Below are positions 1,179 through 21,309 of a stretch of 64,000 nucleotides of DNA, piece after piece. Under the pieces are notes generated by a model. The model was not told where the DNA came from. It saw only the letters and a program-made list of their open reading frames with translations, and did not search any database. Position numbers and translations under genes: made by a program. The stretch spans positions 62,001 through 126,000 of the forward strand of contig JAGOQB010000007.1 of the NCBI GenBank assembly GCA_017991675.1. The letters run 5' to 3'. The stretch is from Phenylobacterium sp. GTDB taxonomy: Bacteria > Pseudomonadota > Alphaproteobacteria > Caulobacterales > Caulobacteraceae. Numbering within the stretch: position 1 is the first letter of the stretch; each line of letters starts with the position of its first letter.

Positions 1179-1180
1179 CC

Positions 1181-4860: not shown

Positions 4861-4867
4861 GGCGTCC

Positions 4868-5056
4868 TCAGAGTGCTTCTTTGTAGAGGGTGCGCCGAGC
4901 GGCGGCGCGTGCATCGCGCTCTCCCGCAAGCGCCCGCTCGCAAACTTCGCCGGATCGCTCGCCGGACCTGCAGGCCTTGAGAAGCTCGGCTCGGGCCTCG
5001 TGGCCCTGGGGCGAACACCCGGCCAGGGCCGCCCCGAGGATCAGCACCCGGATCAT
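4868..5056 (-). CDS. Small lipoprotein between virB5 and virB6, possible entry-exclusion protein
   Basis: The 62-residue reading frame has a lipobox (MIRVLILGAALAGC, Cys14) and a mature part with two more Cys residues (KACRSGERSGEVCERAL) spaced as in a small helical hairpin. Its start overlaps the virB5 stop by 4 bases and it ends just before virB6. Small lipoproteins in this position of virB/trb operons (EexN, TrbK types) often block redundant mating. The same Cys-x(n)-Cys pattern is seen in EexN-like proteins, but I assign the role by position only. Confidence 0.65.
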   Translation of the reverse strand: MIRVLILGAALAGCSPQGHEARAELLKACRSGERSGEVCERALAGERDARAAARRTLYKEAL

Positions 5057-5760
5057 TGGAAGGCCTCTCGATAGAGCGCCAAGCGCGCGTCGGCCGCTGT
5101 CCGGCTGCGCTCGTGATCGCGTTGCGTTTGCAGCCGCTCCTCGGCCGCCTGCGCCATGGCCAGGCCTTGCAAGCGCATTTGATCATTCGCGATCATCGCC
5201 TGCTCAGCGGCCAGGCGCGCTTGAATGTCCATGACCGCTCTGGCGTTGGTCGCGGTGTCGAGCGCACTCGCGATTTCGGCCAGGCCGTCCAAGCGCTCGG
5301 ACCCCACATCGGCCGCTTGGCGGCCAAGTGCGAGATCGCGAGCTGCGCGGTCGCCGATGCGCTCGAGCTCCTGCCCAAGCACGTCGCCAGGCTTGGCCGA
5401 GAAGAGCCGGTGCGTCTGGCGAATGAGGTCGGCCGTCTCGCCGAGTTCCCCCAGTCCTGAGAAGTCGCCATTCGACGCGGCGACGTAGGTTTCGATCTGC
5501 GGGACGAATGCGCGAAGCGCTGGCGTGGACAGGGCGGCGGCCAGGCTGTTCACGTCCGAGATCTGATTGAATCCGTCGTAGAGGCGCTTGGCCTCGATGA
5601 CCTGGGACTTCAGCTCGTTCAACTGGTTGAGGGCCGTCTGCGCCTGCTGGAGCAGGTTCGCATAGGCCGTCGGGTCGTGGACGATGACCTGCGCCGACAC
5701 GGGCTGAGGTTGGGTGGCGAGCCACACGCTCGCGATCGAAGCTAGTAGCGCGCGTTTCAT
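5053..5760 (-). CDS. virB5: VirB5/TrbJ-like pilus-tip protein
   Basis: Starting at 5760 the protein is 235 residues with a signal peptide (MKRALLASIASVWLATQPQPVSA). The mature start VIVHDPTAYANLLQQAQTAL is characteristic of VirB5/TrbJ proteins, and the rest is helical, Ala/Gln-rich and coiled-coil-like. Members are minor pilus or adhesion components. The chosen start overlaps the virB4 stop by 4 bases; a longer upstream in-frame start would lie inside virB4 and is less likely. Confidence 0.88.
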   Translation of the reverse strand: MKRALLASIASVWLATQPQPVSAQVIVHDPTAYANLLQQAQTALNQLNELKSQVIEAKRLYDGFNQISDVNSLAAALSTPALRAFVPQIETYVAASNGDFSGLGELGETADLIRQTHRLFSAKPGDVLGQELERIGDRAARDLALGRQAADVGSERLDGLAEIASALDTATNARAVMDIQARLAAEQAMIANDQMRLQGLAMAQAAEERLQTQRDHERSRTAADARLALYREAFQ

Positions 5761-8132
5761 AGGAGGTTTCTCCGAGCATTCTGGAAAGGCAGACGCCAAC
5801 GATCGGGATCGTCGCCGTGCAGGCCGCGAATGCGATCGAGCAGCTCAACGGTTTGGGTCCGGCCCGACAGCACGGCCAATTCGTCGTCGAGGCCGGTCAG
5901 GTCCAGGTCGACGACGATGGAGTTGTGACCCTGTTTCACCAGGAAGTGCCGCCGCTCCGGCGACATCTCATCACGAACCAGCGCGAACTCGCGTTCGCTC
6001 AGGCCAAAGCCTTCCCTGTAGTCGCGCTCGGTAGCGCTGGAATTGGGCAGGAAGATCTTGGTCGCGCATTGCTCGACGATGGTGTGGGCGATCGGCGAGC
6101 GAAGGACATCCGCAGGCGACTGGGTGCCAAACACCATGAAGGCGTTCTGCTTGCGAAAGGTCTTCAGGCCGTCCTGCGCCAGGCCCTGGAAGGCTTCATC
6201 GCCCAAGGCCTTCCAGAACTCGTCGATGTCGAGGACGAGGCGCTGGCCATCGACGAGCACCTGCAGTCGATGCAGGAGGTACATCATTACCGGCGTACGG
6301 ATTTCCGGGACGTCGAGGATGTGGGTGATGTCGAAGCCCAGAAAGCGGTTGCTCAGGTCGAGTGCGTCGGCCTCGCCGTCGAAGACCCAGCCAAGGGGAT
6401 TGCCGCGTCGCCAACGCTCCAGCCGGGCGCCGATACCGTCGGCGTCGCGTTGGCCGAGCAGCGCTCGAAGCGCTGAGATGGATCTCTGCCTCGGTGGAAG
6501 GGGGCTGAGGGCCGCGAGCGCCGCATCTATCGCACGCGCCTCCCGCGGCGTGATCTGCCCGTCGGGCGCCGCCAGCTGCTGGATCAGGCGGCTGAGGAAC
6601 GTCCGGTCGGCAGGCGTGTCGCCAAGCGCCTTCAGGGGCGCAAAGCCTGTCGGCTCCCCAGGCCGTAGCGCCAGATAGGTTCCGCCACAGGCGCGGACGA
6701 AAATCTCCGCCCCGCGATCCTTGTCGATGAAGACTTGGCGGGCGCCGAACTTTTCCAGTTGGGCGAGCAGGAAGTTCTGCACGACCGTCTTGCCCGCTCC
6801 CGTCGGGCCGCAGACGAAGGTGTGTCCGACGTCTCCGACATGAAAGCTGAAATGGAACGGGGATGCAGCCGAGCTGCGCAGCAGGGCGACGGCCGGTCCC
6901 CAATGATTGCCCTCCAGCCGACCGCTGGGATGGGTGTGCAGGGGGGCGAAGCTCGCGAAATTGCGGCTGGTGATCGCGGCGGGCCGGAGTCGGAAGCGGA
7001 ATGCGCCAGGGAATTGGGCCCAGAAGGCCGCTTCAAGGCCGAGGTCCTCGCGCGCGACGACCAGGCCGCTGTCGGCCATCAGGGCGCGGGCCTTGGCCAG
7101 ACGGTTCGCCAGCTCCCCCGGCGCGGCGCCATAGACAAGGACCGAGGCTTGATGGTCGCCGAGAACGAACCTGTTGGAAACGAGATCGTCGAGGGCCTCT
7201 TCGAGGCCCGACACCTGGGAAGCGGCGCGGTCGCGGGCCGAAACCATCTGGTTCTGCTTGCGCGCGAGGAGAGCGCGAGCCGCCGGCTTGGAGAGGAAGC
7301 TGAAGGATTGGGCCACGACGAGCGGGAAGGGCGCTGCGAGCAGGTCGTTCCAGAGCCCGGGACGGGTCGAGGCGGGGTACTCCTTGACGCCGAGGACCCC
7401 AGCAAAGGTCTCTCGCGAGGCCTCGCGAATTTCCAGCGCCTCGCGCCCAAAGATCAAGCGGGCCGAATAGATCGACGCGCCCAGGTGGCCCCGCACGAGC
7501 GGAACCGGTTCGCTGCGCCCGGTGAGGATGAGGCGCATGAGCTCCATGGGTTCTGAGAAGACCAGATCATTGCGCGTTCGCAGGCCAAGCGGCGTCGGGC
7601 CGTACCGACCGAGGTGCTGAGTCAGATTGCGCCCAGCGTCTTCGATGCGGCGTATCGCGTTGCTCTCTGCGGCCTGGTCAGCGGAACGATCGAGGCGTCC
7701 GAACAGGGCCTGCAGGCGGCTTGGGAGGGCGCGCCCGGCGTGAAGCACAAGCGTCAGGTAGAGTTCGTTGATGAAAAGCCGTTCGCATTGGAGACGGTCG
7801 CGGTAGGCGTGGTCGAGTTCGGCGGCGAAACGTGAGCGAAAGCGACCGTTGGGGTAGTCCTCGGAAGCCCTTCGGACGACGTGGTGCCAGATCGCCAACT
7901 GGTCGTCGGCGAGATTACGCCAGGTGTTGTTGAGCTTGGCGTGGAGGTCGTTGAGGTCGCGTGGATCCGCTGTTTCGAAACTCGTCCCTTCCAGCCGAAA
8001 GCTCAGCATCAAGGCGCCTGTGTCGAGGAGGACTACCTGGTCGTTAAGGTGACGGGCGAATGGAAGAGCCGCGTCAGGCTCTTGCTCGCGCTTGCGCAGC
8101 TTGGCTGAGATCGGGCGGACGGATTTAGGCAC
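5757..8132 (-). CDS. virB4: VirB4-type conjugation ATPase
   Basis: The 791-residue protein is the largest ATPase of the type IV system and energises pilus assembly and substrate transfer. It has the CagE/TrbE/VirB N-terminal region, a Walker A CGPTGAGKT at residues 441-449, and a Walker B LVLDIDEFWKALGDE near residue 630. The probable start is GTG at 8132, overlapping virB3 by 8 bases. Length is normal for stand-alone VirB4. Confidence 0.95.
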   Translation of the reverse strand: MPKSVRPISAKLRKREQEPDAALPFARHLNDQVVLLDTGALMLSFRLEGTSFETADPRDLNDLHAKLNNTWRNLADDQLAIWHHVVRRASEDYPNGRFRSRFAAELDHAYRDRLQCERLFINELYLTLVLHAGRALPSRLQALFGRLDRSADQAAESNAIRRIEDAGRNLTQHLGRYGPTPLGLRTRNDLVFSEPMELMRLILTGRSEPVPLVRGHLGASIYSARLIFGREALEIREASRETFAGVLGVKEYPASTRPGLWNDLLAAPFPLVVAQSFSFLSKPAARALLARKQNQMVSARDRAASQVSGLEEALDDLVSNRFVLGDHQASVLVYGAAPGELANRLAKARALMADSGLVVAREDLGLEAAFWAQFPGAFRFRLRPAAITSRNFASFAPLHTHPSGRLEGNHWGPAVALLRSSAASPFHFSFHVGDVGHTFVCGPTGAGKTVVQNFLLAQLEKFGARQVFIDKDRGAEIFVRACGGTYLALRPGEPTGFAPLKALGDTPADRTFLSRLIQQLAAPDGQITPREARAIDAALAALSPLPPRQRSISALRALLGQRDADGIGARLERWRRGNPLGWVFDGEADALDLSNRFLGFDITHILDVPEIRTPVMMYLLHRLQVLVDGQRLVLDIDEFWKALGDEAFQGLAQDGLKTFRKQNAFMVFGTQSPADVLRSPIAHTIVEQCATKIFLPNSSATERDYREGFGLSEREFALVRDEMSPERRHFLVKQGHNSIVVDLDLTGLDDELAVLSGRTQTVELLDRIRGLHGDDPDRWRLPFQNARRNLL

Positions 8133-8463
8133 GACGCCGCCTCAGAGCCGCGTGGCGCGTGAGCGGCAACGGGGTCGCCGAGCTGCCGCCCCACGCCTGG
8201 GTGTTGCGGGCCCGACCTCTCGTCTCAAGGTGAAGATAGAGAACCCGGAAGGCGTTGGGATCGCTTCGGCAGACCGCCTGAAAGACGAGGTGCAGACCCG
8301 GTGCGATGAGAAGGTAGAGCATCGAGTCCGCGGCGAGGAAGGCCACCGCAGAGACAAGCAGGTTGACGCCCACCGCCTCCATTGGAACGCCGAGCACGGT
8401 CGCTGGCCTTGTACAGGCCAGAAAGAGAATGTCCTCGGTCAGGCGTTCTGGGACCGAGCTCAT
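8125..8463 (-). CDS. virB3: VirB3-like membrane protein
   Basis: The 112-residue protein has the family opening (LTEDILFLACTRPATVLGVP), a paired hydrophobic region at about residues 28-60 and the short segment HLVFQAVCRSDPNAFRVLYLHLETR, which is diagnostic of VirB3/TrbD. It assists VirB4 in pilus biogenesis. The C-terminal tail is Arg-rich. One base separates it from virB2. Confidence 0.9.
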   Translation of the reverse strand: MSSVPERLTEDILFLACTRPATVLGVPMEAVGVNLLVSAVAFLAADSMLYLLIAPGLHLVFQAVCRSDPNAFRVLYLHLETRGRARNTQAWGGSSATPLPLTRHAALRRRRA

Positions 8464-8464
8464 G

Positions 8465-8761
8465 TCAGCCCCCCGTGATCATGTCGACGATGGTGGCCGC
8501 GCCGAAGATGACGATGATCCCGACGATGACCGTGCCGGCGCGGCGCAGGTCCAGGTGGCCGAACATCCAGGCGATGCCGGTGGCGATGACGGCCAGGATG
8601 GCCAGTCCGCGAACGATGCCGCTGCTCAGCAGGTCGATGATGTTCTGGATGAAGGCGCCGATATCGCCGCCCACGCCGCTGGCCTGCGCAAAAGCCGGCG
8701 TTGCGGCGGCGCTCGCGACCGCGGCCAGCAGCAGGACATAGGTGTTGCGGGAACGATTCAT
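8465..8761 (-). CDS. virB2: VirB2-like major pilin precursor
   Basis: From the ATG at 8761 this is a 98-residue propilin with a signal peptide (MNRSRNTYVLLLAAVASAAATPAFA) followed by two hydrophobic helices (about residues 47-66 and 76-93) separated by a short basic loop (GHLDLRRAG). That is the standard VirB2/TrbC layout. A longer in-frame reading exists upstream but covers virB1, whose stop overlaps the preferred start by 4 bases. Confidence 0.9.
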   Translation of the reverse strand: MNRSRNTYVLLLAAVASAAATPAFAQASGVGGDIGAFIQNIIDLLSSGIVRGLAILAVIATGIAWMFGHLDLRRAGTVIVGIIVIFGAATIVDMITGG

Positions 8762-9354
8762 TGGGCGGGTTCCGGTTGAGGGGAGAAGACGAAGCTGGTG
8801 CGCCATTTGACTTCGCGTGCGACGGCGAAGGCGTCCCAGCTCGGCGCCGGGGGCTCGGCCTCTTCGGGCGCGGGGTCCTGCTGGCCGAAGCGTTCGGCCG
8901 CAGCCACGACCTTGGCGACGTAGCCGTTTCGAATGCCGCGTTCGGGATGTCCGGTGTTGTAGTGGGATAGCGCTGTTCTCAATGCCGTCTGAGGAGCCTG
9001 GTCGGCGGCCCGGGCGCGGTCGAAGCCCTCGCGAAGGACAGCGGCCGACGCCGCCAGGTTCTCGCATGGGTCGAATGCGGCCTCTATCGAGAGGTTCAAT
9101 CGATCGAGGTTGCGGCTGTTGATCTGAGCGAGTCCGAGATCGATGCTCGCGCCGCTTTCAATCAGCCGCTTCGCCGCGGCGATCGCGTCGGGGGCGTTGG
9201 TGGACCGCACCTGGCGATGTGGTGGGCCGTTGACGCCAATCGCCAGCGGATCAAAGCCACTCTCCACCTCGGCGATGCCGAGCAGCGTCGCGTGGGCGAC
9301 GTTTGGCGCGCAGCGCTCGATGAGCGCTCGCATCTCCGCAAGCTCAAGCATCAT
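8758..9354 (-). CDS. virB1: VirB1-like lytic transglycosylase
   Basis: The protein is about 198 residues, an SLT-type peptidoglycan hydrolase that opens the wall for the secretion apparatus. The catalytic Glu lies in AEVESGFDPLAIGVN, and the motifs GLAQINSRN and LSHYNTGH complete the fold. No clear signal peptide is visible, as in some VirB1 proteins. The ATG at 9354 overlaps the stop of a 15-codon reading frame with a strong ribosome site, so translation may be coupled to it. It is the first recognisable gene of the operon. Confidence 0.9.
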   Translation of the reverse strand: MMLELAEMRALIERCAPNVAHATLLGIAEVESGFDPLAIGVNGPPHRQVRSTNAPDAIAAAKRLIESGASIDLGLAQINSRNLDRLNLSIEAAFDPCENLAASAAVLREGFDRARAADQAPQTALRTALSHYNTGHPERGIRNGYVAKVVAAAERFGQQDPAPEEAEPPAPSWDAFAVAREVKWRTSFVFSPQPEPAQ

Positions 9355-9446: not shown

Positions 9447-9483
9447 CCGTAAGGCTACTCGCTATGGGCAGGTAGCCTTACGG
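9447..9483. repeat. Perfect 12-bp inverted repeat between luxR-type gene and virB operon
   Basis: The arms CCGTAAGGCTAC (9447-9458) and GTAGCCTTACGG (9472-9483) are exact reverse complements around a 13-base spacer. The right arm overlaps the stop codon of the LuxR-type gene. There is no T-run after the stem on either strand, so a simple intrinsic terminator is doubtful. An operator for the LuxR-type or XRE regulator, or an RNA hairpin upstream of the virB operon, are the alternatives. Confidence 0.6.
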
Positions 9484-9792
9484 CCTTCGAGCGAGCAGAC
9501 CGAGGTCGAGCGCTTTGAGGACCGCCTGGAAGCGTGTTCTGACATTCAGGTGCGCACACACCTTGGACAGATGCCCCTCTACCGTCCGGCTGGAAATCCC
9601 GAGAATGCCGCCAATATCGCTGGCGCTCTTACCTTCCTGAACCCACGCTAGGCATTGAAGCTGCCGATCAGTGATCGCACGCAACTCGATAGCGGAGAGG
9701 TCCGCCGTCAGTGTCGCCTCACGGGATCGGGGACCGGAAGCGCTCCTCGCCTCGATCAAAGCGCCTTGAGAATCCACAGCGTCTATCGTCAT
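9478..9792 (-). CDS. LuxR-type single-domain DNA-binding regulator
   Basis: The 104-residue protein is almost entirely a LuxR/FixJ helix-turn-helix: ITDRQLQCLAWVQEGKSASDIGGILGISSRTVEGHLSKVCAHLNV follows the family pattern of a Thr/Glu start, Gly-Lys turn and TVxxHL recognition helix. No receiver or autoinducer domain is present, only about 40 N-terminal residues. It sits with an XRE regulator just upstream of the virB operon on the same strand and probably controls conjugation genes (inference from place). Confidence 0.85.
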   Translation of the reverse strand: MTIDAVDSQGALIEARSASGPRSREATLTADLSAIELRAITDRQLQCLAWVQEGKSASDIGGILGISSRTVEGHLSKVCAHLNVRTRFQAVLKALDLGLLARRP

Positions 9793-10527: not shown

Positions 10528-11244
10528 TTGTGGGATGATCGGGCCTTGGTTTGGCTTGGCCCGGGCTTGTATTTCCGATGTTCCTACAGCGCGCGACTGC
10601 CCTGGGGGCTCGTTTTGCCTCGAACGCGTGATCCATTCGGTAGCGTGTTGCGTGCGCTGCGAAGCCGGCTAGCCGATGGCGTCTATGCGCCTGGTGAAGC
10701 CTTGGCGATCGTTGAACTGGCCCAGGAGTTCGAGTTCAGCACGACGCCCATTCGAGAGGCTCTTGGCTGGCTCGCGGGAGAGCAAGTCATTGAGGAGCGG
10801 CGTGGGGCCGGCTTCAGTTGCTGGCGGGTTGAGTACGATCTTCTGCTGTCGCTCTACGATCTACATGAGGCCTATGTGAGGCTGGCGCTGCAGAGCCTCG
10901 GCGCTCGTCGGGACTTGGGCGTGCTGATCGAGAGTGGCGAAGCGCCAGCAGGCGCTGAGCCAATACGCCAGGCCGCACGGACCTTCCGAAGTCTGGTCGC
11001 CGCGTCCGGCAATATGCCGCTGTTCCAGGCCCATGGCGCCCTGACGGTGAGGCTGGGAAACATCCGGCGCGCCGAAAACGCAGTCTTGCTCGATCAGCAC
11101 GGCGAGCTTGCGGCGTTCGAGGCAGTCGATTGGAACTGCGAGGCGTTGAGCGCCTGGACGACGCGATATCACAGAGTGCGGCGTGATCACGCGGCGGAAA
11201 CACTGAAGCATATGGCGTCAGGGCAAATATATTATCGTATCTAG
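10528..11244 (+). CDS. GntR-family regulator next to the lasso peptide genes
   Basis: The winged helix is clear: VLRALRSRLADGVYAPGEAL followed by LAQEFEFSTTPIREALGWLAGEQVIEERRG, matching FadR-type GntR proteins. The C-terminal part (about 110 residues) is helical and poorly conserved. The open frame begins with TTG at 10528, but GntR domains normally start close to the N-terminus, so a start near TTG 10615 is more natural. The gene ends 81 bases before the lasso precursor on the same strand. GntR regulators accompany several proteobacterial lasso clusters, so control of this cluster is likely but inferred. Confidence 0.8.
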   Translation: MWDDRALVWLGPGLYFRCSYSARLPWGLVLPRTRDPFGSVLRALRSRLADGVYAPGEALAIVELAQEFEFSTTPIREALGWLAGEQVIEERRGAGFSCWRVEYDLLLSLYDLHEAYVRLALQSLGARRDLGVLIESGEAPAGAEPIRQAARTFRSLVAASGNMPLFQAHGALTVRLGNIRRAENAVLLDQHGELAAFEAVDWNCEALSAWTTRYHRVRRDHAAETLKHMASGQIYYRI

Positions 11245-11325
11245 GGAATATATCTTGAATGCAATTCTCACGGCGGGCCTGCTCTATTCGCCACAATGAG
11301 TGGTGTTAAGCAAGCGGAGGGCGAA

Positions 11326-11451
11326 ATGCTCTACTTCCGTAACTTCCTTCGCCATGGACTCACCTGCTTTGGCGACGCCAAAAGGCTGACCAAGGGCTAT
11401 CCCGACGGTGAGTTCATCGAGCTGGCTGGCGACCGCTACGACGAGGTCTGA
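11326..11451 (+). CDS. Lasso peptide precursor (41 aa)
   Basis: The gene lies between the GntR regulator and the lasso B gene and has a strong ribosome site GGAGG (11316-11320) five bases before the ATG. The leader (residues 1-23) ends F-G-D-A-K-R-L-T-K, which lines up with the astexin-type ending L-G-x-A-x-x-x-T-x, with the required Thr at -2. The predicted core is GYPDGEFIELAGDRYDEV: Gly1 and Glu9 would form a nine-residue macrolactam ring, leaving a nine-residue tail with Arg14 and Tyr15 as possible plugs. An in-frame ATG ten codons upstream (11296) would give 51 residues but lacks a ribosome site. Ring and tail are predictions from family rules. Confidence 0.88.
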   Translation: MLYFRNFLRHGLTCFGDAKRLTKGYPDGEFIELAGDRYDEV

Positions 11452-11468
11452 GACCTCGCCGTGACCAA

Positions 11469-11494
11469 CCCGGCGCCGGCTCGCCGGCGCCGGG
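11469..11494 (+). promoter_or_regulatory. Strong RNA hairpin between lasso precursor and B gene
   Basis: Arms CCCGGCGCCGG (11469-11479) and CCGGCGCCGGG (11484-11494) pair perfectly around a CTCG loop, 17 bases after the precursor stop. There is no T-run, so it is unlikely to be a full terminator. Hairpins at this place in lasso operons are thought to favour precursor mRNA over the downstream enzyme genes by partial termination or by 3'-end protection. Confidence 0.75.
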
Positions 11495-11528
11495 CGTTCG
11501 CGACGTCAGAGGAGCGCCCTTCGCCGCC

Positions 11529-12179
11529 ATGCACCTTTCCCCAGACTGCCATCTAGCCGTCGTTGCGGACGACCTCGTGTTTCTGGATGCACGCCGAGGC
11601 GTCTACCTTTGCCTTCCGGGCTCCGCCGGCAGCGTCGTTCGTGGCCGCGACGGTGAGATGGCGGTTTACGAGCCATCGCTTCAGGAGCGGCTCAGCAACG
11701 CCGGAATGCTCTCGTCGCCCCATCCGGGCAGCAACGACCGCTCGCTCGCGGCGCCGCCGGATCGGCCGGAACGCGATCTGCCCGACGGGAGGCCCGCGCG
11801 GTTCACCATCCCGGCGATCGCCGATCTACTCATTGTCTACTTCAGCGCAACGTGGCGCTTTCGGGTCCGATCATTTGGGGCTGTCGTCGAATGGGCGCGG
11901 CGCAGTGGCTGCACAAGGCAAGTCAGGGCCGGCGACCTGTTCGAAGATGTCCGCCTCTTTCAGGTCTGCTTGCCTTGGCTGCCATTCCAAGGACGCTGTC
12001 TGCTCCGCTCGTTTCTTCTACTGGAATTCTTGCGTCGACGAGGCCACGCCGAGATCCGCTGGGTGTTCGGTGTCGCGACCTGGCCGTTTTCCGCGCACTG
12101 CTGGCTGCAGATCGGCAGCGCGGCGCTTGATGATCAGGTGGGCCGCCTGACCCGCTATACGCCGATCATGGCGGTGTAG
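11529..12179 (+). CDS. Lasso peptide B protein (leader recognition domain plus cysteine protease)
   Basis: The 216-residue protein removes the leader from the lasso precursor. The N-terminal 75 residues (VVADDLVFLDARRGVYLCLPG) have the pattern of the RRE leader-binding domain. The C-terminal part is the transglutaminase-like protease: Cys157 in FQGRCLLRSF, His190 in FSAHCWLQIG and an Asp at 201 or 202. RRE and protease are fused, as is typical of proteobacterial clusters. It starts 78 bases after the precursor stop and ends four bases before the cyclase gene. Confidence 0.92.
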   Translation: MHLSPDCHLAVVADDLVFLDARRGVYLCLPGSAGSVVRGRDGEMAVYEPSLQERLSNAGMLSSPHPGSNDRSLAAPPDRPERDLPDGRPARFTIPAIADLLIVYFSATWRFRVRSFGAVVEWARRSGCTRQVRAGDLFEDVRLFQVCLPWLPFQGRCLLRSFLLLEFLRRRGHAEIRWVFGVATWPFSAHCWLQIGSAALDDQVGRLTRYTPIMAV

Positions 12180-12183
12180 GCCT

Positions 12184-13872
12184 ATGCCGGACTACGTCGC
12201 ACTCCATTGGAATGTCGATTGCGAAGTCTCCCATCGGATCGGCTGGGTCCAGCGGGCGATATCGCAGGACGAGACTTGGCGGCTCGCCATCGACGAACCG
12301 GGGCGGCTTGTCGCCGTATCGGCGCCCGCCGCTCTGAATGTCCGCCGGATGTCGGACGGTGCAGTTGTCATCGGCGACGTCTTTGCGCGTGACGGAGGCG
12401 ACCCTAGCTGGCCGCCGGGGGGCGCCGCGGGCTTCCCCGCGGTCTGCCGAACGCTCGTCGAAGAAGCTTGGGGGAGATACGTTGCTCTTGGACCGCCGGA
12501 GGCCGGTCGAGCCGCGGTCCTTCGGGACCCAATGGGTGGTTTGGAGTGCATCACCTTCGACGCCGCCGGGGCGCAGGTGGTCGCCTCGACTCTGCCAGAC
12601 TGGCTGATTGTAGGGCTCTCGCCGAAGCTGTCGATCGACTGGAGCTTCCTGCATCGCCAGTTCGGCCGCAGAGGCATAGCTGGCGGAGCAGCGCTTTGGG
12701 GCGCTCAAGCGCTCGCGCCTGGCGAGTACCTGGACACGGTGGGCAAGGGGAAAATGCTCTGGCTCCCCGCAGATATCGCGCGGCGTGGGCCGACGGCAGA
12801 TGAGACGCTCGTCGGCCTTGTCGATATGTGCATCAAGGCGCTGACGAGCGGCCGTCGCGTTCTCACTGAGGTGTCCGGAGGCTTCGACTCCGCCGTCGTG
12901 GCCAGCGCCCTTGGCGCGATCCCTTCTTCCAGAGAAGGCCCCGATCTCATCAACTACCATACCGAGGAGATCGAGGGCGACGAGCGCGCCTATGCCCGGC
13001 TCGTCGCTGACAGGACCGGGCTGAACCTGATCGAGCGCCGGAAGCCGGAGTTTGCGTTCGATGAGGCGTCCCTCAGGGAGTTTTCGGGTGCAGTAGGCCC
13101 GGCGATATGGGGCGTAGACGCTCGCTATGATCGAGATGTCGCCGATCAGTGCAGGGCTCTCGGCGCGGACGCCATTCTGAGTGGGAAAGGTGGTGACAGC
13201 GTCTTCTTTCAGATGCCGACACCGATGGTGTTCGCCGATCGCCTGAGGTCCCGCGGCCTGGCGAGCCTGACTGAGCCTATCCTTCCGAGCGTGGCGCGCT
13301 GGACGCGGCGGTCGGTCTGGTCTGTGCTTGGCTCGGCTCTCTTCTGCGATGTCACGGGCCGCCGCGTCAGCGATCATCCCTGGCTGAGCGAAATCTCCGA
13401 TCTTCCGCCAGGAAAGCGTCTGCATCTGCGGAGCTTGACCCAATGCTTGAGCTTCGCTGGGCCCTCGCGTCGGGCCAGCGCGGCTCATTTCATCCACCCG
13501 CTGTTGGCGCAGCCAGTCGTCGAACACTGCCTTTCGCGCCCAAGTTTCGAACTCACCCAAGGCCGTCGCGATCGGGCATATGCGAGGACCTGCTTCGAGG
13601 CGCGGTTGCCGCCGGAGATCGCCTGGCGGCATGGAAAAGGGGACGCGACTGCCCATTTCGGCCGAGCTGTCGCAGCACATCTCCAGTTTCTACGCAGCTA
13701 TCTGCTTGAGGGCCTGTTAGCGACCCAGGGCGTTCTCGATCGGCGCCGCCTGGAGCGCAGTTTGTCCCTCGACCGCCTCATCTGGAGCGGCGGCGCCGGC
13801 GACGTGCTGCAGGCCGCGGCGATGGAGGGATGGGCGCGCGGCTGGGAGCGGCGGCTACGGACTTCGGCCTAG
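12184..13872 (+). CDS. Lasso peptide C protein (asparagine synthetase-like macrolactam cyclase)
   Basis: The 562-residue protein should adenylate the core's acidic side chain (predicted Glu9) and join it to the Gly1 amine. The ATP-pyrophosphatase loop SGGFDS is at residues 231-236, preceded by a degenerate glutaminase-like N-terminal domain without a catalytic Cys2. The later segments AILSGKGGDSVFFQ and HPLLAQPVVEHCL are typical of lasso cyclases. It is probably cotranscribed with the B gene. Its last 95 bases overlap the convergent isopeptidase gene. Confidence 0.93.
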   Translation: MPDYVALHWNVDCEVSHRIGWVQRAISQDETWRLAIDEPGRLVAVSAPAALNVRRMSDGAVVIGDVFARDGGDPSWPPGGAAGFPAVCRTLVEEAWGRYVALGPPEAGRAAVLRDPMGGLECITFDAAGAQVVASTLPDWLIVGLSPKLSIDWSFLHRQFGRRGIAGGAALWGAQALAPGEYLDTVGKGKMLWLPADIARRGPTADETLVGLVDMCIKALTSGRRVLTEVSGGFDSAVVASALGAIPSSREGPDLINYHTEEIEGDERAYARLVADRTGLNLIERRKPEFAFDEASLREFSGAVGPAIWGVDARYDRDVADQCRALGADAILSGKGGDSVFFQMPTPMVFADRLRSRGLASLTEPILPSVARWTRRSVWSVLGSALFCDVTGRRVSDHPWLSEISDLPPGKRLHLRSLTQCLSFAGPSRRASAAHFIHPLLAQPVVEHCLSRPSFELTQGRRDRAYARTCFEARLPPEIAWRHGKGDATAHFGRAVAAHLQFLRSYLLEGLLATQGVLDRRRLERSLSLDRLIWSGGAGDVLQAAAMEGWARGWERRLRTSA

Positions 13873-16288
13873 AGCCAGATGCGTCGAGTCCTGGAGCTCC
13901 GATCGTCGCGGAGAGCCAGGAGAACACGCGATCGTACATGTCGCGAACGTTGCCGGGGCTCGATATGACGTGGCCCTCGCCCCAATAGGTAGCCAGGGCA
14001 GCCGGCTTGCCCTGGCGATAGAGCGCCGAATACACGCTCTGGGCTTGCCCGAGGGCGATCGAGTCCTGATCGCCCTGGATCAGCAGGACCGGTGCAGAGA
14101 TCCGATCGACCTGGCTGAAGGGGCTGTTTCGAGCGTAGCGCTCCGGATCGGTCCAGGGGGGCCCCCCCATGCCGGCAGCCTTCTCGACCCACCCCTGTCC
14201 CCAGTTGGTCGAAGGGCCGAGGTCGGCGCTGACAGCGAAGTCTGGCGGTATCGCACCCCAATGAGCGGATAGATCGGAGATGCCCGCCGAGACGATGATC
14301 GCGCCGAACCTCTCCGAGCGCGTCGCGGCGACCAGAGCTGCGTATCCGCCGTAGCTGTGTCCCCAGATGGCGATTCGTCGGGGATCAACAAAGCCGCTGG
14401 ACACCGCCGTCTCGACCGCGGCGCTGATCTGTTCGGTGAGACCCGACGCCGGCTCGGATGTGCCGACTGGCTCGGTCAGGCTGGGAACAAGGACCGCATA
14501 GCCGCGCGCGGCCAGTAGCTGGGGATTGGTGTAGAGCGTCAGGGCTCCTGGCGCGTATTTCGACGGCGGGGCCGGATAGATCGCACCCGGATAGGGGACT
14601 ACGATCAAAGGCAGCCGCGCACCTTCCTGGCGGCCGGGGGGCAGATACAGCCAGTGGGCGCCACGGGCGCTGGGATTGGCGCGCAGGGCTCGGACATCAG
14701 CGAACTCGAGCTCGGCGAACCCCGAGTTGATTGTGCGCGCCACGAATGGCTTTAGCCCCCGCCGGTGCACCGAGAGACGCGATACCCCGTGCCGATCCGT
14801 GGTGGTCACGACCATCGTGCTGGCGCTCATCGCAACGACCCGCGCGCCAGAGGGAAGATCCTGAACGCTGAACTGACCGGCTCTCGCAACACGTACGACG
14901 GCGGCTCCTCGCGGGGATTCTTGAAGCGCTGGTAGCCATGACTGGCGTGACGGAGCATTGATGGCGAGCCGCAAGGGCGCGCCGACCGCGATCTTGGAAA
15001 GCGAGGCAGCACCGCTCATCAGAGATGGGCGACCTTGGCGATCGACCGACCATGCCCTCTCATCGGCGATTAACAACAGGCCTTGGTCATCTTGGGCCGC
15101 CAGGGTCGCTGGCGCGTTCGCGAAGTCAGCCGTCAGGTTCGTGGCGCCGACCCGGCCCAATGCATACCAGTCGGACCGACGCGATTGGCTTTGCCGTCCG
15201 TGCAAGACGGGCGCGTCGGCCAACCAGGCTGCCTGGACGGTGACAGTCCCGTCCCGGCCGACGTCGACTGTCGGGACCACGCCGTGGCGCGCGATCGAGG
15301 CAAGCGCGCCTGAGTTCGCGGCAATGACGTAGAGTTCGCCATCGGTCCAGGCGCTCGCCCTGGCGCGTGCGAACACCAGCAGCTTGTTCGCCGTCGGGGC
15401 CCAGGCCAGCAGCCCCGGCAGTACGTCGCAATCGGAGCAGGGCGACCTGGTGAGACCGTTTTCCAGGTCCACAAGGAGCACGTTGTGTCGTTGGAGCGTA
15501 TCGCCGTCTCGCAACGTTCGGACCGAGGCCGGACTCAGCTGCTCACCCACGGCGAGGACGGCGGCATAGCGGCCATCGCTTGAGAGTTCGAGATCGGCGA
15601 AGGCGCCGGCGGCGATGGTCCTCAGTTCACCGGTTTCGGCGTCGAATTGCACGAGCTGCTGCTTGGCCGGACCTTGACGCAGCCCGCTGAAGGGCCCGCT
15701 TCCGATGACCGTGACCGAAGGTTGGCCGCGATCGGCCCTGGCCCAAAGCTCAGGCAATTTCGCCATCGCATCCCAGCCAAGGCGCAGGCGGTCGGGTAGG
15801 CCGCCGCCGGGTCGGACGATGAACACCAGCTGCCGGTTGGAGCGCCACTGGGCCAGCCGGCCGAGTATGCCGTACTCGGGCGTCACCGGGAGCCAACGCA
15901 CCTCGCCGCGACCAACCTGGGCGATGCCGGCTCGCCAGCTTTCGCCTTCGAAACGATAGACGAGGACGGCCTTTCCGTCTGGCGATATCGGGCCGGCCAC
16001 GTATCCTCCCGCGTCGTCCTGCGGGAAAAGGGGTGTGGCTGGGCCTGGGTGATCGAGATCCGCTAGAAAGAGCCGGCTCGTCGCCAAGTGTGCATAGTAG
16101 TCGCCTTGGAAACTGGGCGCAGCGGCGTATGGGCCGCGCTTCTCGAAGATGAGCCAGCGGTCGTCAGGGGTGATGGAGGCATCTCCCCACTGCTCAGACA
16201 TGAGCAGGTCGTCAACCGTCGGTGCACGCGCCGAAGCCTCGGCCGTGATGGCGAGCATGCATGCAGCCGCGAGCGCAAAGACGCGCAT
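13778..16288 (-). CDS. Lasso peptide isopeptidase (S9 prolyl oligopeptidase family, secreted)
   Basis: The 836-residue protein has a signal peptide (MRVFALAAACMLAITAEASA), a beta-propeller-like middle and an alpha/beta-hydrolase domain. The catalytic triad is visible: Ser645 in GHSYGG, Asp742 in QGDQDS and His773 in EGHVISSP. Enzymes of this type (AtxE2 group) sit beside FecI/FecR/TonB-receptor genes in lasso clusters and cut the isopeptide bond to linearise the peptide. The final 31 or so codons (about 13778-13872) are antisense to the cyclase gene and give an odd Pro- and Arg-rich tail. The gap of 44 bases to the receptor gene suggests one transcript. Confidence 0.9.
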   Translation of the reverse strand: MRVFALAAACMLAITAEASARAPTVDDLLMSEQWGDASITPDDRWLIFEKRGPYAAAPSFQGDYYAHLATSRLFLADLDHPGPATPLFPQDDAGGYVAGPISPDGKAVLVYRFEGESWRAGIAQVGRGEVRWLPVTPEYGILGRLAQWRSNRQLVFIVRPGGGLPDRLRLGWDAMAKLPELWARADRGQPSVTVIGSGPFSGLRQGPAKQQLVQFDAETGELRTIAAGAFADLELSSDGRYAAVLAVGEQLSPASVRTLRDGDTLQRHNVLLVDLENGLTRSPCSDCDVLPGLLAWAPTANKLLVFARARASAWTDGELYVIAANSGALASIARHGVVPTVDVGRDGTVTVQAAWLADAPVLHGRQSQSRRSDWYALGRVGATNLTADFANAPATLAAQDDQGLLLIADERAWSVDRQGRPSLMSGAASLSKIAVGAPLRLAINAPSRQSWLPALQESPRGAAVVRVARAGQFSVQDLPSGARVVAMSASTMVVTTTDRHGVSRLSVHRRGLKPFVARTINSGFAELEFADVRALRANPSARGAHWLYLPPGRQEGARLPLIVVPYPGAIYPAPPSKYAPGALTLYTNPQLLAARGYAVLVPSLTEPVGTSEPASGLTEQISAAVETAVSSGFVDPRRIAIWGHSYGGYAALVAATRSERFGAIIVSAGISDLSAHWGAIPPDFAVSADLGPSTNWGQGWVEKAAGMGGPPWTDPERYARNSPFSQVDRISAPVLLIQGDQDSIALGQAQSVYSALYRQGKPAALATYWGEGHVISSPGNVRDMYDRVFSWLSATIGAPGLDASGSRPKSVAAAPSRAPIPPSPRPAARRRRRRSR

Positions 16289-16332
16289 GAAGTCCTCACT
16301 GCAAAATTGCGGGGGATCGCGCTGAGCGCGGC

Positions 16333-19300
16333 CTACCAGGTCTTGCTCAACTGAAGTGACACGACCCGGCCCATGGGGCTGGCGTTGGCGGCGTCGAAGC
16401 CGACGCCCTGGAAGGCGTCATAGAACGGCGGAGCTTCGTCGAGGAGGTTACGCACCCCCAAGCTCAAGCTCAGCCCCCGCCAGGGAGACCGCATCATCTC
16501 CGACGTGCGCCAACGCCCCTGGACGTCCACCGTCGTCCAGGATGCGACCGAGCCGCCCATGCCGTCGCTGTATCCATCGACGTAGTTGGCGCTAACCGTG
16601 GCCCCCCAGGCTCCACGGTTCCAATCCAAGCTTGCCCGGCCGCGCAGGTCTGCGGGCTCGCCTGGCGTGTCTAGCGTCTCGATCGGAGGCGATGTCGGCG
16701 TGAGCGTCTGTTCAAAGCGCCCGAGCCAGGTCGCGCTGAGCGAAACCTCGAAGCGATGTTCGTCTCGCTCGAAGCTGTAGCTCCCTGAGACGTCCAGGCC
16801 GCTGACGCGTGTCGACGCGGTGTTCACGTAGCGCGCATCGACAATCGCGCCGTAGGCTTCAGGAGGGAAGGCGCCAGGAAACGCGAACGTGGCGTCGTTG
16901 ATCAGGGCTGTGACGAGGGCCAGGTCCGTGGGGTTGCGCGGATCGACGAAGCGAACAAAGGGGGCGTAGGTCGGGTCGCTCAGCGCGGTGTTGACGTGAT
17001 CGAGCGCAGGCCGGGCGATCCGGTCTTCAAAGGTCGTGTCGAACCAGGTGGCGCTGACATGAAGTCCCGCCAGTGCGGCCGGCGCGTAGTCGAAGCCGGC
17101 GGACCAGGAGGTCGCGGACTCGGGCTTGAGCGACGGGTTGCCGCCGTATCGGATCACCGACAGCGTCCGGCCTGGGCCCTGAGGCAGGAAGCTAGCGCCG
17201 ATGCTGCCTGCCTCGAAGACCTCGACGAGGGTCGGGGCGCGAAAGCTCGTCCCGTAGCTGGCTCGCAGATTGAGATCCTCGTTTGGCTTCCAGATGAGAC
17301 CAAGCTTCGGATCGGCGGTCGAGCCGACATCGTCATAGTCTTCGATGCGGCCGGCCAAAGAGAGGTCAAGGCGGTGCAGGCCAGCGCGCGAATTGGCGTC
17401 GCCGATCAGCGGAATGCGCAGTTCGGCGAATGCGGCGCTGACACGTCGTTCCGACCCCGGCCGCTTTGCGCCACGCGGCGTCGCGGTCGAGGTGAAGATC
17501 AAGTTCTTCTGGTCGAAGGACTCATTGCGCAGTTGGAGGCCAACGGCGAGCCGGGCCGGCCCGCCAGGCGCCCTAAACAGGGTTCCATCGGCCTGAAGAG
17601 CCAGGGTTTCGACGCGGCTGCGGCTGGTTTGCTCGGAGAAGCCGGAGCCGATGAAGTCGAGAACGGCGCGTCCATTCGCGCCGCCTGCGCCGTAGGGATT
17701 GAAATAGCCGTCGCGCGCGGCGCTGTAGCTGGTCGCGGGATCGTCGGGGATCGCTCCCAGCGCCTCACTGAGGAGGCGCGTATTGACGGTGTTGCTGAAA
17801 CGCCGGGTGCCGACCTCCTGCGCGAATGCCAGGTAGGCCTCCGAGCGCCAATCGCCCCAGAGGTCAGCCTTGAGCGCCAGCGTGGCGCCGAGGCTCTCGG
17901 CGAGGCCTGAGCTCCTGACGGGCCCGAGGTCGTCGCCATAGCCATAGGCGATCTGCTGGGATGTCAGGCCGGGCAACGCCACATAGTAGGGATTGGTCGC
18001 CCGCACGGTGATGACTCCGGTCGAGGCGAGAGTGCGGAAGTCAAAGCGACGGCGAGTGTAGCGGGCGTCGGCCTCTACCTCGAGCCACGGCGTGAGCGAC
18101 TGGCCGACGAACGCGTAGAGGCTGTCGCGCCGATCGTCGGGAAGGAGGTCGAGGCCCTGACGCTGGTTTTCCAGGTTGACCTGTCCGGGGACGAAGTCGG
18201 ACGGCGAGGTCGCGGCGCCGTTCGCGCCCGGTCGGATGGCGTAGATCGGCGTGTAGTTCGAGGTCGCGGGGTCGAGCTGCACGACATTGCCTGGAGCGCT
18301 GTAAATCACGCGGTGGTCGGTTCCGCCGAATGGGCGCAGGTCCGATGAGGCAGCGTAATCGCGCGCGGCGGATGGCAGATTCTGCCGGTGGTATCTCTCA
18401 TAGGCGATGAGGCCGTGGCCCCCGGCCCAGGTTTTGCCGAAGACCTGCGAAAACTGGGTTTCCTCAGCTTCGCCGCCGGAGGCGACGCCGTACCGAAGCC
18501 GGGTTTCTGCGCCGTCCAGGTCGCGGCGCAGCCGGATGTTGACGACCCCGCCTACGGCGTCAGAACCGTAGAGGGCCGATGCGCCGTCCACCAGCACCTC
18601 GACGCGTTGCACAGCCACCACGGGGATGGCGGAAAGGTCGGCGAAGTCGCCCTTCGAGCCTGTGCCGGCCATCCGCCTGCCGTTCACGAGCACCAATGTA
18701 GCGTCGGTTCCGAGGCCGCGGAGGTTCACGCCGGTGGAGGCGAAGCTATTGGTGCCGAGAGGATCTGCGCCGGTCAGCAAGGTGGTCGGTGAGCCGCCAC
18801 CGCCGCCGAAATTCTGCGGAAGGCTGGTGACCGTTTCGTCGAGGGTGGCGAATCCGCGCTTGGCGATGGCCTCGCTGTCGAGCACCACGACTTGCGAGGG
18901 GCCATCTTTGACGCCACGCAGGTGGCTACCAGTAACGACGACCTCGGCGATTTCCTCGGAAGCGCGGTGCGCGGGGATGATGGCCTCCGCTGACTGGACC
19001 GCCCCTTGTGGCTCGACCGACGACAGTGGCGTCAGCCGGCCGGCGGGGTAGGGAGCCGCCTTTGCGCGCAAGACGATGGAGCCGCGCGTGGTTCGATCGA
19101 TCACGAGGTCGCTTCCGGCGATCAGGCGCTTGAGGGCCTCATCGGCCGTCAGCCGCCCCTTTACCGCTGGCGCATTTCGGCCGCTGACCAGCGACGCCGA
19201 ATAGAGAAGCTGGCGTCCGCTCTGGTGCGAATAGCTGACCAGGGCTTGGTCGAGCGGTCCGGCGCCGATATCGAAGGTAATTTGGGCCGGCGCGGCGAGC

Positions 19301-19374
19301 GCAGCCGCGGGGGCTGCACTGGCGCACAACGCGAGCAGAAACGCCTGGGGGGCGTACGACTTACTGAACGACAT
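16333..19374 (-). CDS. TonB-dependent receptor with STN signalling domain
   Basis: The 1013-residue outer-membrane receptor has a signal peptide and a secretin/TonB short N-terminal (STN) domain at about residues 28-105 (ITFDIGAGPLDQALVSYSHQ; GRLTADEALKRLI). A plug domain at about 145-265 (VVLDSEAIAKRGF; NLRGLGTDATLVLVNGRRMA; EVLVDGASALYGSDAVGG) precedes a long beta-barrel that ends in a C-terminal aromatic residue (SLQLSKTW). The STN domain passes ligand binding to FecR. Its place between isopeptidase and fecR/fecI suggests that the lasso peptide is the ligand (inference). Confidence 0.93.
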   Translation of the reverse strand: MSFSKSYAPQAFLLALCASAAPAAALAAPAQITFDIGAGPLDQALVSYSHQSGRQLLYSASLVSGRNAPAVKGRLTADEALKRLIAGSDLVIDRTTRGSIVLRAKAAPYPAGRLTPLSSVEPQGAVQSAEAIIPAHRASEEIAEVVVTGSHLRGVKDGPSQVVVLDSEAIAKRGFATLDETVTSLPQNFGGGGGSPTTLLTGADPLGTNSFASTGVNLRGLGTDATLVLVNGRRMAGTGSKGDFADLSAIPVVAVQRVEVLVDGASALYGSDAVGGVVNIRLRRDLDGAETRLRYGVASGGEAEETQFSQVFGKTWAGGHGLIAYERYHRQNLPSAARDYAASSDLRPFGGTDHRVIYSAPGNVVQLDPATSNYTPIYAIRPGANGAATSPSDFVPGQVNLENQRQGLDLLPDDRRDSLYAFVGQSLTPWLEVEADARYTRRRFDFRTLASTGVITVRATNPYYVALPGLTSQQIAYGYGDDLGPVRSSGLAESLGATLALKADLWGDWRSEAYLAFAQEVGTRRFSNTVNTRLLSEALGAIPDDPATSYSAARDGYFNPYGAGGANGRAVLDFIGSGFSEQTSRSRVETLALQADGTLFRAPGGPARLAVGLQLRNESFDQKNLIFTSTATPRGAKRPGSERRVSAAFAELRIPLIGDANSRAGLHRLDLSLAGRIEDYDDVGSTADPKLGLIWKPNEDLNLRASYGTSFRAPTLVEVFEAGSIGASFLPQGPGRTLSVIRYGGNPSLKPESATSWSAGFDYAPAALAGLHVSATWFDTTFEDRIARPALDHVNTALSDPTYAPFVRFVDPRNPTDLALVTALINDATFAFPGAFPPEAYGAIVDARYVNTASTRVSGLDVSGSYSFERDEHRFEVSLSATWLGRFEQTLTPTSPPIETLDTPGEPADLRGRASLDWNRGAWGATVSANYVDGYSDGMGGSVASWTTVDVQGRWRTSEMMRSPWRGLSLSLGVRNLLDEAPPFYDAFQGVGFDAANASPMGRVVSLQLSKTW

Positions 19375-19500
19375 TCATTCCCTCACCACTTGTGCAGCGC
19401 GTTGTCAGACGGCGAGCCGGCCTGATCGCGATGCGTTGTGAGGGATAGACACGCGGGCCCCAGGCAAACCCTGACGACCACCGCAAAGAAAACTATGGCT

Positions 19501-20460
19501 TCACTCCATTCGGGCGCGAAGCAGCAGATCACCGTCCTGCTCGGTGCTGAGGTCCAGCGCATAGAGGTGCGCGACGGCCTCGGCCAGGGCGTCGATATCT
19601 CCCGTGTGGAAGACGCCGTTCACATGGGCAGCGGCGATGTCGTTCGACGCGGCGAGCCGGATCTTGCGACGGCTGTAGCGGTTGGCTTCCTCGACGGCCG
19701 CCGAGAGCGGCAGGTCCCGAAAGACAAGGCGGCCGCTCGTCCAGCTAGTGACGGCGCTGGTGTCGGCCAGCACGCGCGGCCCGTCCTGGCCGGTGGTGAT
19801 CTGCTCTCCTGGCCTCAACGTCCAGGCTCGGGACGAGCTGTCGTTCACGCGAACCTTGCCCTCGAGCAAGGTCACCCGGACCTTGTCCGCGTCGCGTCGA
19901 ACGTCGAACTGTGTGCCGAGGGCTCGAACTTCGACCTTGTCGACCGACACGACGAACGGACGCTTCGCATCGCGAGCAACCGCGAACATCGCTTGGCCGC
20001 GAGCGAGCTCGACCCGCCGTTCGTCGCCTCTCATCCTCACGATCGCTCTGCTGTTGGTGTCGAGCGTCAAGGTCGAACCGTCGGCAAGGCGGACGGCGCG
20101 CTGCTCTCCGATCTCGGTTTGATAGACTGGGGCGTGCAGCAACCATCCGGCGGTCAGGGCGCCTGAGAGCGCGAGGACGGTCGCCGCGGCGAGCGCGAAG
20201 AGGCGGCGTGATGGTTCAGGCCGCCGAGTCGTCGTCCGATTGAGCGCCTCGTTAGCGGCGGCCCGGATGTCCGGATCTGAGTGCAGGGCGTCGCCACTGC
20301 GCCACAACGCCTCGACCTCAATGTAGGCCGCTTCGTTTGCGGGGTCGCTGCGCCATGCGAAGAAGGCGTCGAGGGTTTCGGCGCTGACGGAATGGGTGCG
20401 CAGCCTGGAGAACCAGGTCGCGGCGTCTTCCAGCACCTGTTCGTGTGAGTTGGCGGCCAT
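19501..20460 (-). CDS. fecR: FecR-like transmembrane anti-sigma regulator
   Basis: From the ATG at 20460 (five bases after the sigma factor stop) the protein is 319 residues. An N-terminal DUF4880 region (WRSDPANEAAYIEVEALW) is followed by one membrane helix (about residues 85-107) and a periplasmic FecR domain (VRLADGSTLTLDTNSRAIV; VRALGTQFDVR). The end matches the C-terminal signalling domain (AAAHVNGVFHTGDIDALAEAV). It would hold or activate the FecI-type sigma factor according to the state of the receptor. Confidence 0.92.
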   Translation of the reverse strand: MAANSHEQVLEDAATWFSRLRTHSVSAETLDAFFAWRSDPANEAAYIEVEALWRSGDALHSDPDIRAAANEALNRTTTRRPEPSRRLFALAAATVLALSGALTAGWLLHAPVYQTEIGEQRAVRLADGSTLTLDTNSRAIVRMRGDERRVELARGQAMFAVARDAKRPFVVSVDKVEVRALGTQFDVRRDADKVRVTLLEGKVRVNDSSSRAWTLRPGEQITTGQDGPRVLADTSAVTSWTSGRLVFRDLPLSAAVEEANRYSRRKIRLAASNDIAAAHVNGVFHTGDIDALAEAVAHLYALDLSTEQDGDLLLRARME

Positions 20461-20465
20461 GACGA

Positions 20466-20996
20466 TTAGTCCGCGAGCTGTTGGGCGCAGAGAACCAGCG
20501 CCTTGGCGAGGCGCCACTCGACAGTCTTGATCGAGAGACCCAGGCGCTCGGCGATCTCGGCGTTGGTCATTCCGGTGAAGCGGCTGAGGATCATCACATC
20601 CCTGAAGATGACGGGGAGGGATAGAACGGCCTGCTTGAAGACAAGGGATTCAAGCTGACTGGGCGCATCGACGCCATCCACCGTCTCCCGTTCGAGCGTC
20701 TCGGCCAGCCGCCTGCGGGTCGCCTCGGCGCGGATCTGATTGCGGGCGAGATTGGTGGCCACCCGCAACAGCAACGCCTGAGGATGGCGTACTTCCTGGG
20801 CGGCATGAAAGGGGGCCACGCGAATATATGTCTCTTGGACAACGTCTTCGCCATCGATGCCGTAGCGTCGGCGAAGCATCGCCTTCAGCCAGCCTGAATA
20901 GCGTCGATAGAGGACCGACAGGCTCTCGACGTTGCGTTGGTCGGTGTCCACGCCGTTTGGCGTCAGGACTTCGCCCGAGGTGGGTTGGTGGGCCAT
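20466..20996 (-). CDS. fecI: FecI-type ECF sigma factor
   Basis: The 176-residue protein has region 2 (VLYRRYSGWLKAMLRRRYG; GEDVVQETYIRV) and region 4 (LPVIFRDVMILSRFTGMTNAEIAERLGLSIKTVEWRL), the standard two-domain ECF layout. The start at 20996 has a good AAGGCGAGG upstream; a longer frame to 21155 would run through a dispersed repeat and is unlikely. It leads the fecI-fecR-receptor-isopeptidase run and should direct transcription of the receptor genes, as FecI does. Confidence 0.9.
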   Translation of the reverse strand: MAHQPTSGEVLTPNGVDTDQRNVESLSVLYRRYSGWLKAMLRRRYGIDGEDVVQETYIRVAPFHAAQEVRHPQALLLRVATNLARNQIRAEATRRRLAETLERETVDGVDAPSQLESLVFKQAVLSLPVIFRDVMILSRFTGMTNAEIAERLGLSIKTVEWRLAKALVLCAQQLAD

Positions 20997-21309
20997 GGCC
21001 TCGCCTTGATGCTGCGAGGCGCACGCCCGGATGTCCGGGTGTTGAGAACATGCTTGACCATGCGCCGACGCCTTTAGCCGCCGCTGGCGACCTGGACATG
21101 CGCGTCGGCCACGCCGGACAGAGGGCGTCGTGGACTTCTCAAGCGAGGTTCTCACGCCTCGGCGCCGCGGCCGCGGCGCAACCCTGAGTCTAAGTCGCGA
21201 GGTTCACCGAACGCAAGAATCTAAAACGTCCGAGGCGCCCCGTCCTGCTGCGACGCATTCGGTGCGGAGCCGCATTCTAAGGCTCAGCTTCGCGGGGCGC
21301 GAGGGGGGC
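20997..21309. other. Intergenic region upstream of the sigma factor gene
   Basis: These 313 bases hold the 5' region of the fecI-type gene and a copy of a dispersed repeat (21035-21121). I see no convincing coding frame. A canonical promoter cannot be placed with confidence. Confidence 0.5.
21035..21121. repeat. Dispersed repeat, copy 1
   Basis: The segment starting CCGGGTGTTGAGAACATGC and containing GCGCCGACGCCTTTAGCC, then TGGACATGCGCGTCGGCC, is closely matched at 27267-27345. Differences are scattered and include a small gap. It lies about 40 bases upstream of the fecI-type start. No open frame is conserved between the copies, which fits a non-coding dispersed element. Confidence 0.65.

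Follow-up and report, generated by a model that had tools for sequence, protein, structure and literature searches.

A predicted lasso peptide core that is identical between diverged Phenylobacterium operons

The window, by which we mean the whole 64,000-nucleotide stretch of Phenylobacterium DNA analysed here, carries at 11326-11451 a short gene whose product is in all probability a lasso peptide precursor of class II and the isopeptidase clade. Two features take the locus past ordinary annotation: the predicted core of the peptide has stayed fixed while the operon around it diverged, and an AT-rich element is associated with the operon. A more far-reaching reading, to which we assign a probability of roughly one in three (0.35), is that purifying selection keeps the core as a ligand (a signal or cargo) shared across Phenylobacterium species for a conserved TonB receptor and its sigma/anti-sigma pair, via a dedicated AT-rich operator. 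If true, it would make the function of isopeptidase-type lasso peptides testable.

A lasso operon of the isopeptidase type

The first-pass annotation had placed the gene in a lasso operon of the astexin/caulosegnin type. Both parts of that assignment are borne out: the set of eight genes is complete, running from GntR, A, B and C to convergent genes for E, a TonB receptor, FecR and FecI, and both the gene set and its order are those of isopeptidase clusters. The same eight genes lie in the same order in Phenylobacterium sp. Root1290 (NZ_LMEE01000004.1) and in the MAG RI_411 (NZ_WGNY01000022.1). The features of the locus are as follows, with identities referring to the two homologous clusters.

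10528..11244, forward strand: GntR-family regulator (PF00392 50.9 bits, cut-off 27; 54% and 45% identity)
11248..11261, forward strand: AT-rich element ATATAKNTTGAATR, candidate operator or promoter, 3 nt after the GntR stop codon
11316..11320, forward strand: ribosome binding site GGAGG, 5 nt before the ATG, read from the sequence
11326-11451, forward strand: lasso precursor gene A (ATG at 11326, stop at 11449-11451, 41 codons)
11326..11394, forward strand: precursor leader, 23 codons, MLYFRNFLRHGLTCFGDAKRLTK (gap-free alignment with two homologues)
11395..11448, forward strand: predicted core GYPDGEFIELAGDRYDEV, 18 residues, identical in Root1290
11529..12179, forward strand: lasso protein B, B2 cysteine protease (NF033537 61.2 bits, cut-off 33; PF13471 60.3, cut-off 26)
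12184..13872, forward strand: lasso protein C, macrolactam synthetase, asparagine-synthetase-like (PF00733 71.1 bits, cut-off 21; 53% and 50%)
13778..16288, reverse strand: E, S9-family peptidase, putative lasso isopeptidase (PF00326 101.5 bits, cut-off 22.6)
16333..19374, reverse strand: TonB-dependent outer-membrane receptor with STN domain (PF00593, PF07715 and PF07660 above cut-off; 68% and 64%)
19501..20517, reverse strand: FecR-like anti-sigma regulator (PF04773 83.7 bits, cut-off 24; 50% and 52%)
20466..21155, reverse strand: FecI-like ECF sigma factor (PF08281, PF04542 and PF07638 above cut-off; 59% and 53%)

The class II assignment follows from a short precursor lying beside B and C, with Thr at position -2 of the leader and a predicted core that starts with Gly, carries Glu at position 9 and contains no Cys. 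Within B, the cysteine protease is identified by NF033537; the leader-binding part, an N-terminus that we take to be an RRE-like domain, is assigned by eye alone. The isopeptidase clade is indicated by a GntR gene before A, by E, the TonB receptor and the sigma/anti-sigma pair, and by the absence of an ABC transporter from the eight assigned genes of 10528-21155. Isopeptidase lasso clusters have a near-constant gene order, which the window cluster matches (PMC9266682, in excerpt). Together, the gene set very probably makes an 18-residue lasso peptide.

The individual genes vary in how firmly they can be named. The GntR reading frame probably starts near 10606-10612, where its homologues begin to align. 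The candidate Cys, His and Asp of B (in G-CL-R, AHCWLQ and LDD) and the SGG-DS loop of C are each invariant in four aligned clusters. C scored under the cut-offs of the lasso-cyclase NCBIfam models (NF033561, 56.7 of 300; NF033535, 34 of 525), and the window's own genome contains a single match to its gene. For E, the best NCBIfam family was NF033523 (Atxe2 isopeptidase), whose cut-off of 400 the score of 81.6 bits does not reach, and its sequence profile reached AtxE2 (5txc) at E 1.2e-18, after other S9 enzymes. Its catalytic candidates S645 and H773 are invariant and D742 nearly so in 12 aligned sequences, some of them partial. The predicted model of E (pLDDT 76.6, pTM 0.74) is an S9 peptidase; a Foldseek search with it placed general S9 peptidases at the top and the lasso isopeptidase SpI-IsoP (5jrl) at rank 50 of the best 50 matches listed, and a second fold search, again headed by other S9 peptidases, returned no lasso isopeptidase among the best 50 matches listed. 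Fold searching was set aside as proof of the identity of E, since other S9 peptidases rank above the lasso isopeptidase, and E is a putative isopeptidase by context more than by sequence. The C and E genes overlap tail to tail by 95 bp (13778-13872), and by 53 and 68 bp in Root1290 and RI_411.

The precursor, its start and its predicted core

What had been described of the precursor itself was confirmed on inspection: the 41-codon frame with its strong ribosome site, a leader ending in FGDAKRLTK with Thr at -2, and a core with six acidic residues and Gly at its first position. The first residue of lasso cores is Gly, Ala, Ser or Cys (PMC12670498, in excerpt). Glu9 is the sole acid at core positions 7-9, which supports the proposed pairing of Gly1 and Glu9 as ring residues; Asp4 and Glu6 are further acids, and the cut after Lys23, the Gly1-Glu9 ring and its threading are predictions from sequence. 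The calculated mass of the core minus one water is 2025.8955, with [M+2H]2+ at 1013.9551.

The Met at 11326 is the start common to the gap-free alignment of the three precursors from the window, Root1290 and RI_411, and the residues encoded upstream of it are not conserved in the homologues. Further in-frame start codons exist upstream in the homologues, ATGs at 7 and 10 codons in Root1290 and the next Met at 26 residues in RI_411, so the starts are those indicated by the alignment and the ribosome sites. A longer leader of 51 aa from the ATG at 11296, which the first-pass annotation had offered as an alternative, is disfavoured by this alignment and by the absence, as judged by eye, of a ribosome site before it. 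A Pfam match of the precursor to DUF5974 (16.4 bits, cut-off 38.5) was taken as non-significant.

Among known systems, the clusters of astexin-2/-3, benenodin and caulosegnin, also from Caulobacteraceae, share with the window their gene order and the absence of an ABC transporter (PMC9266682, in excerpt), and they likewise have Thr at -2. The caulosegnins have rings of 8 and 9 residues (PMC13352647, in excerpt), to be compared with the predicted Glu9 ring. The window differs from these clusters in that one precursor gene was found and in that its E is only distantly similar to AtxE2. To our knowledge its core is unlike those of astexin-2/-3, benenodin and caulosegnin. The zucinodin cluster of Phenylobacterium zucineum belongs to the same genus and type, and its core, which we take to be GGIGGDFEDLNKPFDV, was recovered by our precursor search in L047 together with the same upstream element; that core is nevertheless a different one, and the L047 cyclase is 40% identical to the window's. 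In the sphingocin cluster of Sphingomonas BPH, A, B and C adjoin isopeptidase and TonB receptor genes, and both the core, GPGFINNDGVGGKLPFAGLSDD, and the leader differ from those of the window (PMC11006600, in excerpt).

The core is unchanged where the operon has diverged

The Root1290 cluster shares with the window an identical core and the synteny of all eight genes, while its B, C and E are about half identical. All 18 core residues agree, with six silent codon changes and zero replacements. The leader is identical to that of the window at 11/23 positions in Root1290 and at 14/23 in RI_411; relative to Root1290 it shows 12 replacement and 6 silent codon changes, which sets it apart from the core (Fisher p 0.014). 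Over aligned codons, identity between the window and Root1290 is 49% for B, 54% for C, 53% for E and 69% for the receptor, and stretches of 18 consecutive identical residues number 0/185 in B, 0/539 in C, 0/789 in E and 10/989 in the receptor. The RI_411 core is GQPEGERIEPLGDFYDVG, and the residues invariant in all three genomes are G1, P3, G5, E6, I8, E9, G12, D13, Y15 and D16.

Within the leader, 11 of the 12 replacements relative to Root1290 fall at -22 to -9; the stretch GDAKRLT at -8 to -2 is shared, and at -1 Lys in the window faces Arg in Root1290. A step from diverged to identical sequence was considered as a marker of the cut and dropped, since the agreement with Root1290 already covers -8 to -2. 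Conservation thus gives no mark of the cut, and the predicted site rests on Thr at -2 and Gly1.

To set the identical core against a background, we assembled a control set of 87 fetched related clusters, made up of part of the family cyclase loci and two loci from the three-cyclase search, and extracted precursors by tblastn plus a pattern, with two false precursors removed by hand. A precursor was obtained in 69/87 clusters and none in 18, giving 102 precursors, 75 distinct cores and 2,343 pairs of clusters; the pairs are not independent, because clusters of near-identical genomes were retained. The window and Root1290 form the only pair of the 2,343 with identical cores at less than 70% cyclase identity. 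Below that level the median best core identity was 0.28-0.52 per band, and the 50-60% band (69 pairs) had a median of 0.45; above 80% cyclase identity, 38/40 pairs had identical cores. Thr at -2 and an acid at 7-9 are no evidence within this set, because the extraction pattern demands both.

That the core is unchanged while the surrounding genes diverged suggests that the peptide has a specific job, the case consisting of one genome pair, the window and Root1290. The relative conservation of the receptor was dropped as special evidence for a ligand, since the receptor is also better conserved than C in three of four clusters whose cores are unrelated or were not read (L049, L050 and L052); in the fourth, L053, where C is a fragment, it is not.

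As seen by eye, cores in other Caulobacteraceae (L088, L090, L095, L024 and L028) have, like the window core, G-(E/T)-F-x-E-L followed by Tyr, and they often begin with Ala1, not Gly1. The likeness suggests that these and the window core form one wider core family.

An AT-rich element upstream of the precursor gene

The sequence ATATAKNTTGAATR at 11248-11261 is the sole match in the window at one mismatch or fewer, with 0 expected (100 shuffles). A shared AT-rich stretch was seen by eye in six upstream regions, and a strict pattern for the element was found within 250 nt upstream in 23/68 clusters, with 3 matches in 451,031 bp elsewhere in those stretches, both strands counted; L046 had been placed by a false precursor, so that its true element was left out of the upstream count. 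Aligning 18 sites, one for each distinct core, gave the consensus AATATAGanCnnATATAGTTTGAATAtA, whose half-sites are 11 bp apart. On the matrix of the element the window copy scores 16.7, which is weak, the 18 building sites scoring 24.4-43.3.

Across 101 genomes of the genus, ATATAKNTTGAATR matched at 24 places in 20 genomes, and its reversed form matched nowhere. All but two of these matches (22/24) sit between an upstream GntR gene and a downstream lasso B gene in the same orientation, a placement that is not independent for some clusters because the element pattern was drawn from the same clusters; several of the 22 loci are close relatives. A precursor was seen by pattern in 19 of the 22, and in L122 the B match lies further away. 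Each of the two non-lasso copies (L102 and L118) stands before a gene; the encoded proteins, of 206 and 248 aa, resemble each other by eye:

L124, 6677-7362: locus of a non-lasso copy of the element
L125, 3698-4451 (reverse strand): locus of a non-lasso copy of the element

These two proteins had no Pfam match at E ≤0.01. The first of the two copies lies near what are presumably ParB-like and ArdC-like genes.

That GntR binds the element is a guess from its position, and a promoter is equally possible. Nothing relevant to an upstream element of lasso operons appeared among the literature matches listed. The element offers a way into the regulation of isopeptidase-type lasso operons and a marker by which they can be searched for.

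Proposed role of the peptide

According to the mechanism that we propose, the RRE part of B would hold the leader and the cysteine protease part would cut after Lys23, whereupon C would link the Gly1 amine to the side-chain carboxyl of Glu9, closing the ring around the threaded tail. The product would be a strongly acidic lasso of 18 residues in which five acid side chains remain free, beside a single Arg. It would leave the cell without a transporter gene in the assigned cluster and re-enter via its own TonB receptor, signalling through FecR and FecI. The receptor with its STN domain, FecR and FecI suggest that such uptake switches on the genes for the peptide's own uptake and opening, and E, the putative isopeptidase, would open the imported lasso peptide.

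The constancy of the core speaks for a specific ligand of the peptide's own receptor, either a signal or a carried cargo, and less for a diversifying antibiotic. A siderophore-like cargo has been hypothesized for such clusters (PMC11006600 and PMC9266682, both in excerpt). A lasso peptide that acts as a narrow-spectrum killer of relatives with the matching TonB receptor, and is countered by E as self-protection, seems unlikely to us: antimicrobial lasso peptides of other clusters do use TonB-dependent transporters (PMC13352647, reference titles), and narrow-spectrum activity is known for astexin-1 of the isopeptidase clade, but the other known peptides of this clade are without antimicrobial activity (PMC9266682, in excerpt), and an identical core amid a diverged operon is not what we would expect from an arms race. 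We also doubt that the identity with Root1290 stems from an old exchange of a core-bearing piece of DNA and not from purifying selection. The core DNA is indeed closer than the leader DNA (6/54 against 33/69 sites differ), and silent change among unchanged residues affects 33% of codons in the core, against 54-57% in B, C and E and 48% in the receptor, the chance of six or fewer silent codons in 18 at a rate of 0.55 being 0.054. Six silent differences in 18 codons are, however, too many for a recent exchange, and the codons directly before the core also differ silently, so that the borders of any exchanged piece would have to coincide closely with those of the core.

It is more doubtful still that the mature product differs from the one predicted here through another cut or ring, whether by a leader from 11296, a truncated tail or use of another acid. 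The lack of a conservation mark at the cut would allow for this, as would the acidic Asp4 and Glu6 and the trimming of tails known in lasso peptides (PMC13352647, in excerpt); against it stand the Thr at -2 preceding a Gly, Glu9 as the only acid within the stated ring range of 7-9 residues (PMC7549694, in excerpt), and the start at Met 11326 common to three genomes, with unconserved residues upstream. With one peptide unchanged across half-diverged operons, peptide and receptor become swappable between the two species.

Distribution and genomic setting

The window's genome (G000) is a 3.03 Mb assembly that is 70.7% complete. Relatives of the cyclase occur in 127/299 genomes of the family. A profile of the three precursors matched 6/101 genomes of the genus at E ≤0.01: the window, Root1290 and RI_411 over the full length at E <1e-26, and three others with partial matches at E 2.7e-4 to 0.0067. 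The full-length matches, the synteny of their clusters and the gap-free alignment speak against a chance reading frame. At E ≤1e-4 it matched 3/390 genomes of the family, the same three, all within the genus. In even samples of the order (398 genomes) and the class (385 genomes), the only genome with the precursor was the window's own. A search of plasmids for the precursor gave no match, and one of viral contigs gave 58 pattern matches with zero confirmed. The cyclase alone had no match among genome contigs, where the three-cyclase alignment found 6 loci; among plasmids, the cyclase search returned 26 records, all below 60% identity.

The first-pass annotation had put the core forward as a candidate new lasso peptide. 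It stands as an added member of a known clade; its novelty is qualified by the identical core in the public Root1290 genome. A text search of open-licence papers gave no match to the letters of the core; a supplementary table of some genome-mining study may well contain the core of Root1290. In the open-licence literature, lasso peptides together with Phenylobacterium gave nothing relevant by title, and with Root1290 no description was found.

Directly before the lasso cluster, at 180-9067, lie VirB-type genes (VirB2, B4, B5, B8, B9, B10 and B11-like), and a relaxase gene is found on the same contig some 3 kb ahead of the window (G000:C25:58659). From this flank and the relaxase, the cluster probably rides on or beside a conjugative element. 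The RI_411 cluster is also flanked by VirB4 (69%), VirB2 and VirB5; these three were not found in the two Root1290 stretches examined. A small LuxR-type HTH protein encoded at 9478-9792 adjoins the cluster, and matches to it lie beside the Root1290 and RI_411 clusters. Further along, at 26208-27125, the window encodes a toxin-antitoxin-like protein that combines nucleotidyltransferase and HEPN domains. Among the ORFs tested between 28204 and 63968 were those for three P-type ATPases, two RND pumps and an FTR1/cytochrome c protein, which suggests metal resistance.
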